64,000 nt of DNA, from positions 303,110 to 367,109 of the forward strand of contig NZ_CP123991.1 in assembly GCF_029919255.1 (NCBI RefSeq). Direction: 5' to 3'. Both the position numbers and the translations under genes were made by a program. The notes below the pieces were generated by a model. That model did no database searches. It had not been told where the DNA came from and worked only from the letters and a program-made list of their open reading frames with translations. This stretch comes from a cyanobacterium endosymbiont of Epithemia clementina EcSB. Its GTDB lineage: Bacteria; Cyanobacteriota; Cyanobacteriia; Cyanobacteriales; Microcystaceae. Numbering within the stretch: the first letter of the stretch is position 1; every line of letters starts with the position of its first letter. Positions 5,640-8,094 of this stretch are shown piece by piece.

Positions 5640-6159
5640 TTATCTGAACAATATATTAATTATAGATAGTGAGGTTATAGTTAAGGTCTGATAATTAGTG
5701 CGTTAGTTATGGAGAATATCTTTAAATTAAAAATTAGTTATCTTTTTTTCTCTTAACTTTTTGGGATTACTTTTGTAATTTTTCCACTTCCTCAGAGACC
5801 CCCAGAATACTTCTTTATTCTTTCTAGAAATTTTTTTTCTCATAAGACTATCTAACAATTAGACCCAATTTACAACTTCTTTAACTTTCTATCCCTTTGT
5901 ATTCAAACATGATATTTCCGTTCTCCCAATTCTGTTATTAGCTGGATTTTTAGACGGGATGGAATCTAAAAGATCACTCTTCATCTAAAATCTCTTTATA
6001 CTTGAGTCTTTTGGATTTGTGTTAAGTTTGTCTACTTAGCAATAAATAAATTCTAATGGTGTGTTCTTAGACAATCCGCTTTCAGCCTAGCTCTTTTGAT
6101 TATTTTTCTCAATAAAATCTAACTAAACTGCAAAAAAAATAACAAATTTTTACTGAGAG
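5640..6159. other. Spacer without recognisable genes
   Basis: About 520 bp of AT-rich DNA between ribE and the glutamine-riboswitch transcription unit. I see no open frame, RNA or strong hairpin. Confidence 0.5.
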
Positions 6160-6189
6160 TTGACATTTATGTTAAAAGTTATGTAGCTT
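6160..6189 (+). promoter_or_regulatory. Candidate sigma-70 promoter for the riboswitch RNA
   Basis: A perfect -35 box TTGACA (6160-6165) is followed 18 nt later by TAGCTT (6184-6189), a weak -10. Transcription would start near 6196, just before the aptamer. No NtcA-type GTA-N8-TAC site is evident. Confidence 0.45.
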
Positions 6190-6212
6190 AGTAAGGGGTG
6201 AGATTCGGCACA

Positions 6213-6290
6213 ATATCGTTCATCTCGACATAGCTAACAGAAAGGGTTGTGAAGGGACGGAAGTAAGTAAAGACAACTGAAGGAACGCAA
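6213..6290 (+). ncRNA. Glutamine riboswitch (glnA / Downstream-peptide RNA family)
   Basis: The family's conserved blocks appear in the right order: ATCGTTCATC (6215-6224), GGGACGGAAGTA (6254-6265, the E-loop-like core) and GAAGGAACGC (6279-6288). CGTTC (6217-6221) pairs with GAACG (6283-6287) to form P1. These RNAs bind L-glutamine and are almost confined to cyanobacteria and marine phage; the Downstream-peptide class precedes short ORFs. Here a 76-codon ORF starts 39 nt past the aptamer, matching that arrangement. I see no obvious terminator between aptamer and ORF, so control is probably translational. Recognised from consensus memory; a covariance-model search would confirm it. Confidence 0.85.
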
Positions 6291-6328
6291 GACAACCTAT
6301 AGACTATTAATGAGGTAGAAACACGTAG

Positions 6329-6559
6329 ATGCTTATGTTTTCTTTAATTACTTTAACTATTGCTTCAGTGTCTGTTTTTCTCAGCTTTAATGCTAAAGAG
6401 GATGTGTTCAAGGCAGCCATGGGATGTACCGCTACTTTGTCTACTTTCTTAACTTTAATTGTTGCACCTTGGATTCTTAAGCTTGCTATTTTAGCAATTC
6501 CTATTTTGATTATCGATAGACTTAACAACAAAACTACTGAAGAATCAACTCACGGCTAA
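6329..6559 (+). CDS. Small membrane protein downstream of glutamine riboswitch, 76 aa
   Basis: The ATG at 6329 opens a 76-codon frame with two hydrophobic segments (about residues 1-19 and 35-65) joined by a short stretch containing NAKEDVFKA, with a polar C-terminal tail. Overall it looks like a two-helix inner-membrane protein. It is not GifA/GifB-like, being hydrophobic rather than short, basic and soluble, so it is not simply the known glutamine-synthetase inactivating factor. Its position directly after a glutamine riboswitch implies expression tied to nitrogen status. The frame is intact and its composition stands out from the flanks. Function unknown. MFS two codons later is an alternative start. 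Confidence 0.75.
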   Translation: MLMFSLITLTIASVSVFLSFNAKEDVFKAAMGCTATLSTFLTLIVAPWILKLAILAIPILIIDRLNNKTTEESTHG

Positions 6560-6956: not shown

Positions 6957-8094
6957 ATGAAAAACTAAGATTGGATTGTTGTTGATAGTGGAATTACTGG
7001 ATTAGCATTAAGTTATGAATTAGCAAAAAAAGACTTAAAGGTTTTATTTCTAGACAAGGAAGTCAACCCACTAAATGCTCCCCGCTATAATTATGAGGGC
7101 TTTGGTTATTGGTCGGAAACCAATGAATAATCGGTTTGTTACTAAGGAAGTTAAATTAATCGTAATTAGTCAGAAGAATTGAGGAAAGATACACAATTCC
7201 GAGAACTCTATTTATTATTAACAATTCGGACGGAAGATGATCTAAAGTGGTTGCTCAAAATCACAACAAATTTTCGATCTGTCCTCAATATTTAAATGTT
7301 CAAGAAGCATGCGAATTGGAACCACTTTTAAATACAAGTGCCATTTCTGGGGGACTGAAGCTACCTCATGGACATATTCACCCTCAAAAAACCAATCCAG
7401 CATATTTCCAAGCTTTTGTTCGACTCGAAGGAAAGCTACAAATTGAGCCAGTCGAACAACTATCAACACAAGAAAATCTTACTGTAGAGGTGATTACAGC
7501 AACTTAAAAATATCATAGTCAACATACTGTGGTTTGTGCAGGTGGATTGAGCTGTTATTTACTCAATAAAATTGGTGTAGCGGTTGATCTTTATTTCACT
7601 CATGCACAGTTAATTATGACTCATCGTGTAGATATTAAATTACGAACGTTGGTAATGCCTGCTATTTTAAACAGAAAAATAGCAGAGTCGGAAATCAATA
7701 ATTATCAATGGTATAATCTCAGTTCAGATATTATTGCTGATGTGATGGAGCCTGGAGACATACAATTTCTTGACGGTCATTTTTGTTTAGGATAAATTAG
7801 CCAAATTTGCATTGACCCAATAGTAAAAATTTATCGAATTTTGAGTAAAAAAAACTATTTAGAAAAGAAATTATACAATGTTACCTACTTTAGAAAATAT
7901 GCCGGTAACATTATATAATTTCTTAGTTGCATTTAAGCCTAATTTAAGTGCTAGAGTAGGAGGATTGAAGTACTTACTGGACTTTATTTATTTTCTGAAT
8001 TTACAAATGCTTTAGTTTTTGCTCCTCTTTTAGCCAGAAGGTTTACAAATTAGGGAAAATAGGACAGTGAACAAATACCAGTTATTAATTAATT
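6957..8094 (+). pseudogene. FAD-dependent (DAO-family) oxidoreductase, decayed
   Basis: Pieces of one D-amino-acid-oxidase-type flavoprotein can be read in order on the plus strand. ATG at 6957 is followed by an in-frame TAA at codon 4, then DWIVVDSGITGLALSYELAK, the dinucleotide-binding Rossmann start with the second Gly of GxGxxG replaced, up to a stop after about 50 codons. The next pieces are 7247-7507 (NVQEACELEPLL, PHGHIHP), 7529-7795 (VVCAGGLSCYLLNKIG) and 7880-8094 (LPTLENMP, PNLSARVGGLK, then after a frameshift LYLFSEFTNALVFAPLLA). The last block resembles the C-terminal FAD-contact segment of this family. Frameshifts and stops separate all pieces, so it is certainly non-functional. 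The substrate cannot be assigned. Confidence 0.88.

Follow-up and report, generated by a model that had tools for sequence, protein, structure and literature searches.

A type-1 glutamine (glnA) riboswitch very probably controls, in our judgement, the gene of a 76-residue hydrophobic and predicted membrane protein in the cyanobacterial endosymbiont of Epithemia clementina. The riboswitch class is an established one, and its recurrent target is apparently unreported: no report of such a small-membrane-protein target was found in the literature searched, and the tables of Klahn et al. 2018 (doi 10.1093/nar/gky709) may already list the gene as hypothetical. The target adds a new output to the glutamine-aptamer regulon, linked to DUF4278 by fusion, and the recurrence of the pair suggests that cyanobacteria respond to nitrogen surplus not only through glutamine synthetase but also at the membrane.

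Aptamer, promoter and leader

The aptamer occupies positions 6215-6291 of the forward strand of the window, that is, of the whole 64-kb stretch of DNA that was analysed. A cmscan search of the window matches it to RF01739 with 50.0 bits against a cut-off of 35 (E 5.6e-8) and over the full length of the model (1-53 of 53). This is the sole Rfam match above gathering score in the window, and the Downstream-peptide model, RF01704, gave no match at gathering score there. The original prediction had spoken of a glnA/Downstream-peptide aptamer, to be checked with a covariance model; the score lies above the threshold, the glnA part of the name is retained as type 1, and the Downstream-peptide part is dropped. 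Among 24 aptamers (19 distinct) that precede genes of the same membrane-protein family, the core is conserved and P3 pairs have changed on both sides, from A-U to G-C and from U-A to C-G. P1 is invariant in the 14 aligned aptamers and is thus uninformative on pair-preserving change.

Upstream on the same strand lies a likely promoter (6160-6189), formed by TTGACA (6160-6165), an 18-nt spacer and TAGCTT (6184-6189) preceded by TG. TAGCTT agrees with the -10 consensus at just three of six positions, and the element is absent from the listing of a generic promoter scan; the case for it is therefore one of conservation. A box made up of TTGACA with at most one mismatch, a spacing of 17-19 nt and TA...T stands upstream of the gene in 21 of 34 relatives, compared with a mean of 4.3 (maximum 8) in dinucleotide shuffles, and TTGACA is exact in 18 of them, compared with a mean of 0.4 (maximum 2). 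The relatives speak for the earlier proposal that the unit has a TTGACA promoter of its own.

Between the aptamer and the start codon there is a 37-nt leader (6292-6328, forward strand) with GAGG at 6312-6315, which we presume to be the expression platform, and no terminator-like hairpin was found in it. A local hairpin masking the Shine-Dalgarno (SD) sequence gave no significant signal as the platform: 3 of 17 leaders fall within the best 20 of 100 shuffles, which is about chance, and the hairpin looks convincing only in leaders L051 and L052; 53 of 102 gif-type leaders pass the same mark. Pairing between the 5' strand of the aptamer and the SD region gave no significant signal either, since in none of the 17 did it rank among the top 50 of 500 shuffles; 20 of 95 gif-type leaders pass.

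The predicted membrane protein and fusions of its domain to DUF4278

The open reading frame (6329-6559, forward strand) starts with ATG 37 nt after the end of the aptamer, is intact and is under purifying selection. The protein of the Rhopalodia gibberula endosymbiont is identical, with seven synonymous and no non-synonymous codon changes between the two genes, while dN and dS are 0.017 and 0.241 for the Epithemia turgida endosymbiont and 0.066 and 0.877 for SU2, a unicellular relative whose genome measures 5.2 Mb. The mean hydropathy over 19 residues is at least 1.3 at residues 1-15 and 33-58, a profile that suggests two or three membrane segments; an AlphaFold2 model places helices at residues 2-20 and 24-74 with low confidence (pLDDT 69.7, pTM 0.35). 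Two features are conserved across the 27 aligned members: an acidic pair that follows the first hydrophobic stretch, and the motif TLxxAPWxLKL in the second. No fitting family was found in Pfam, NCBIfam, PHROG or PDB, where matches were weak and scattered (best E 0.0026), and a Pfam scan of the protein together with 26 aligned relatives gave no DUF4278 match. A phage origin was also considered and rejected, as 50,697 phage records gave no tblastn match at E 0.01.

In other strains, proteins occur in which the same membrane domain makes up the N-terminal part and DUF4278 the C-terminal part. Twenty candidate regions, taken as weak profile matches or as DUF4278 ORFs of fitting length, gave 15 ORFs with both domains, and Pfam PF14105 (DUF4278) scored above cut-off in all five fusion ORFs scanned. 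A profile of the fused membrane domain found 22 ORFs of at least 140 aa, 17 of them with PF14105 in the same ORF; since the 12 ORFs from which the profile was built had been picked for carrying both domains, the independent count is that of the ten non-seed ORFs, of which seven carry PF14105. Homology between the stand-alone and fused domains was found in both search directions: hhalign relates them at 97.1% (E 6.7e-11), and the fused-domain profile, run against the whole of our own genome, returned one match at E <=0.001, the 76-aa ORF. The motif (S/T)LxxAPWxx(K/Q)L is common to both. By homology, then, the 76-aa protein is the stand-alone form of the membrane domain of these fusions. The hydrophobic ORF had originally been set against the glutamine synthetase inactivating factors; it is indeed uncharacterised and hydrophobic, but the contrast is a partial one, the same membrane domain being fused elsewhere to DUF4278, a domain of IF17. 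No aptamer was found at the 20 candidate fusion regions.

Recurrence and evolution of the pair

RF01739 scores above cut-off 43 times in 39 genomes (our own included), and 13 of these 43 aptamers directly precede a gene of the membrane-protein family. In all, the pair of aptamer and membrane-protein gene is seen in 17 genomes (our own included) from six families of one order, so that the homologues behind the same RNA, whose lack in other cyanobacteria the original prediction had named as its refutation, do exist. A protein search gave matches in 43 of 59 genomes (our own included) at E <=0.01, with weak and fused matches counted, and in a scan of named genomes nine of ten membrane-protein loci carry an aptamer, the exception being Hydrococcus rivularis. 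The symbiotic setting in which the pair was first interpreted is too narrow, as the pair is not specific to symbionts and is found as well in far larger genomes, presumably those of free-living cells; it seems to predate the symbiosis.

In a tree (72 columns, few well supported forks) built from 35 stand-alone and 12 fused sequences, with the identical protein of the R. gibberula endosymbiont (G005) and some second copies left out, the two forms fall cleanly apart. Genomes G018 and G040 each have both forms. Aptamers stand in front of 16 of the 35 stand-alone rows, and the other 19 have no recognisable one. The aptamer-bearing rows of G031, G234, G026, G036 and G038 take near-basal positions in the stand-alone clade, with weak support, and this placement is consistent with an ancestral aptamer-gene unit from which the aptamer was lost repeatedly while the gene was retained. 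By eye, G006 and G016 carry degraded remnants of the aptamer, and in the UCYN-A-like genomes SD-like and promoter-like sequence is kept, the aptamer is gone and the gene persists. On contig 32 of G052 (locus L051), two copies of the membrane gene lie in one place, one of which alone has an aptamer.

Place in the glutamine-aptamer regulon

We sorted 169 distinct aptamers by the ORF behind them, a non-random sample composed of the search of 39 genomes, of some of the best-scoring matches listed from 291 genomes and of loci chosen for their membrane-protein gene. From the 291-genome listing 97 further places were drawn, along with 3 from the 39-genome search. Among the 169, the first-listed match of L218 rests on a loose pattern and could be spurious. 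DUF4278 proteins follow 122 (53 with an IF7-like part), IF7-like proteins without DUF4278 follow 13, the membrane family follows 17 and other ORFs follow 17, which makes the membrane family the largest single target class after DUF4278 in this non-random sample. In the available text of a review (PMC6316151), cyanobacterial glutamine aptamers are associated mainly with DUF4278/gifB genes, and the part of PMC8400943 available to us names a second aptamer in Limnospira with the following gene unstated.

The sample holds further ORF types. Aptamers at L157, L179, L214, L217 and L119 precede another uncharacterised and apparently soluble family with a W..Y..LELIPN-like start (the first 70 aa of one member have no Pfam match), those at L076 and L087 precede an ORF of 49-51 aa (SKTYRVS.DTVAFMLSSGFSTDGSWYQWVKKNRQQ) and those at L156 and L193 a hydrophobic ORF of 53 aa, with one member of each of the latter two tested and giving no Pfam match. 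A second small ORF (LEHRLE.AR..G...LI.QLEAE) lies behind the aptamer and IF7-like ORF at L010, L029 and L065, and at L022 an aptamer seems to stand directly before the tail of an ORF of this type.

Our own genome (G000, a 3.07-Mb chromosome) has two aptamers above cut-off. The second precedes a 53-aa IF7-like ORF, and this ORF is all that the search for IF7-like genes found in the genome; the search used one query sequence, so that an IF7-like gene not found is weak evidence of its absence. PF14105 has no match in our own genome. In the E. turgida endosymbiont (G002), the membrane gene's aptamer is the sole one found, and neither an IF7-like nor a DUF4278 gene was found. The search for DUF4278 found none in four diatom endosymbionts (G000, G002, G003, G005) or in the aptamer-bearing G008 and G052, so the membrane protein must work without it there.

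Gene neighbourhood

The neighbouring gene had been described as dead, and this is borne out: a 385-aa oxidase-like protein of SU2 matches 6957-7247 and 7244-8089 on the forward strand, in two different frames. The region 6957-8089 is thus a remnant of a gene that in SU2 is intact downstream of the aptamer-membrane gene unit (L221). GGGITG near the start of the oxidase-like gene presumably points to FAD binding. Across 31 loci we found no operon partner, in that no neighbouring gene stays conserved outside the Crocosphaera-like clade and none points to a target. Riboflavin synthase, which is upstream in 14 of the 31 loci and in the Crocosphaera-like clade only, was discarded as a functional clue. 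At 9 of the 31 loci a gene of 77-151 aa (mostly 132-138) is upstream of the unit, in most cases with riboflavin synthase on its far side. In the window, where its place would be about 5640-6160, no member of this family was found.

Proposed function and alternatives

Our best explanation is that the unit is a stand-alone glutamine-response element, in which the riboswitch induces a small membrane effector, and this effector holds down some membrane activity in nitrogen surplus, and we give this chain, taken as a whole, about an even chance of being right. Plentiful glutamine would turn on the protein through the type-1 riboswitch and would do so at translation, both the direction and the level of control being taken over from gifB, where glutamine activates the expression of IF17 through the same aptamer class at translation, according to the available text of PMC6316151 and PMC11288750. 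The 76-aa protein would then be a direct-acting effector that corresponds, at the membrane, to the inactivating factors of glutamine synthetase, its inhibitory action being suggested by analogy. The parallel is one of architecture: the IF7-like inhibitor of glutamine synthetase occurs alone or joined to DUF4278, as in IF17, and the membrane domain also occurs alone or joined to DUF4278. It is because the protein shares this pattern with IF7/IF17 that a small direct membrane effector is our best guess. IF17 can inhibit glutamine synthetase without its DUF4278 part, which stabilises the protein, as stated in the available parts of the same two papers (PMC6316151, PMC11288750). The target would be something retained by both the diatom endosymbionts and the UCYN-A-like genomes, and thus not the ammonium transporter Amt alone.

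That last restriction bears on the reading closest to the original prediction, in which the protein shuts a nitrogen transporter (Amt1, or a permease for amino acids or glutamine) or aids the exit of ammonium or glutamine when glutamine is high. A hydrophobic protein behind a glutamine switch would suit such a role. Amt is found in our own genome and in 57 of the 59 genomes searched, environmental glnA aptamers have been reported before ammonium transporter genes (PMC6316151 and PMC2864571, in the text available), and the accessible part of a 2026 paper (PMC12903740) suggests that closing its own Amt1 would be all that the diatom endosymbiont has to do, provided that the rest comes from the host. 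However, Amt is near-universal and the membrane family patchy, so that their occurrence gives no link between the two, and the UCYN-A-like genomes G013 and G021 (1.4-1.5 Mb) keep the protein, in G013 beside ribE as in its relatives, yet have no Amt that we could find. The name UCYN-A-like is given to these two on account of their size, their family and the absence of an Amt match. No gif gene (with one query for the IF7-like search) or aptamer was found in them either, and UCYN-A is described in the available part of PMC12903740 as having no ammonium transporter at all. Amt has thus been set aside as the general partner and is unlikely as the general target, which weakens the ammonium-transporter link first proposed, and we consider regulation of transport, broadly taken, distinctly less probable than a damping effector of the kind outlined above.

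Two further readings follow from the fusions and from the losses of the aptamer. The protein could be a membrane anchor that recruits IF17-like or other DUF4278 proteins, both of which would be glutamine-induced, with the fused form doing so in one chain; the fusion itself and the presence of both families in the same riboswitch target set speak for this, but no DUF4278 was found in G000, G002, G003, G005, G013 or G021, all of which keep the membrane protein, and we hold an anchor to be unlikely. Less probable still is that the aptamer is irrelevant, an optional ancestral leftover before a housekeeping membrane protein. The 19 stand-alone rows without an aptamer would fit, as would the degraded and vanished aptamers before genes that persist. 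On the other hand, diatom endosymbionts with shrinking genomes (G000, G002, G003 and G005) have retained an aptamer that scores above cut-off, and in G002 it is the sole aptamer found in a genome where no IF7-like or DUF4278 gene turned up.

The damping effector can be placed in a wider and more tentative frame, to which we give well under an even chance: small membrane "inactivating factors", built on the modular plan of IF7/IF17, may give the glutamine riboswitch response a second arm, bound to the membrane, that throttles a membrane process in nitrogen surplus and that nitrogen-fixing endosymbionts kept after the loss of DUF4278. In one such endosymbiont the searches found, besides no DUF4278, no gif gene. 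If the endosymbionts did keep this arm after DUF4278 was lost, it may help to determine the share of fixed nitrogen that the symbiont retains or the host receives. The available part of PMC12903740 leaves open the form in which fixed nitrogen passes to the diatom host; a direct candidate for a part in nitrogen transfer is this putatively glutamine-controlled membrane protein, which the diatom endosymbionts keep and whose relative in UCYN-A-like genomes has no aptamer. Furthermore, a small and deletable gene offers a handle on the nitrogen-surplus response at the membrane.

Comparison with known systems

The closest known system is gifB/IF17 of Synechocystis and others, with which the unit shares the type-1 aptamer class, a similarly short leader and a small protein expected in nitrogen surplus; furthermore, the DUF4278 of IF17 occurs in other strains fused to a relative of the 76-aa protein. 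IF17, on the other hand, carries DUF4278 and an IF7-like part and inhibits glutamine synthetase, whereas the 76-aa protein is hydrophobic and has neither part. The gifA/IF7-like ORFs behind aptamers in the same clade have the same aptamer, as the second aptamer of our own genome illustrates, but they lack a long hydrophobic stretch, and we saw no resemblance between them and the 76-aa protein. The type-2 (Downstream-peptide, RF01704) elements of marine picocyanobacteria also place a glutamine aptamer before a short ORF; theirs is a different aptamer family, however, and its ORFs are DUF4278 proteins, according to the available text of PMC6316151.
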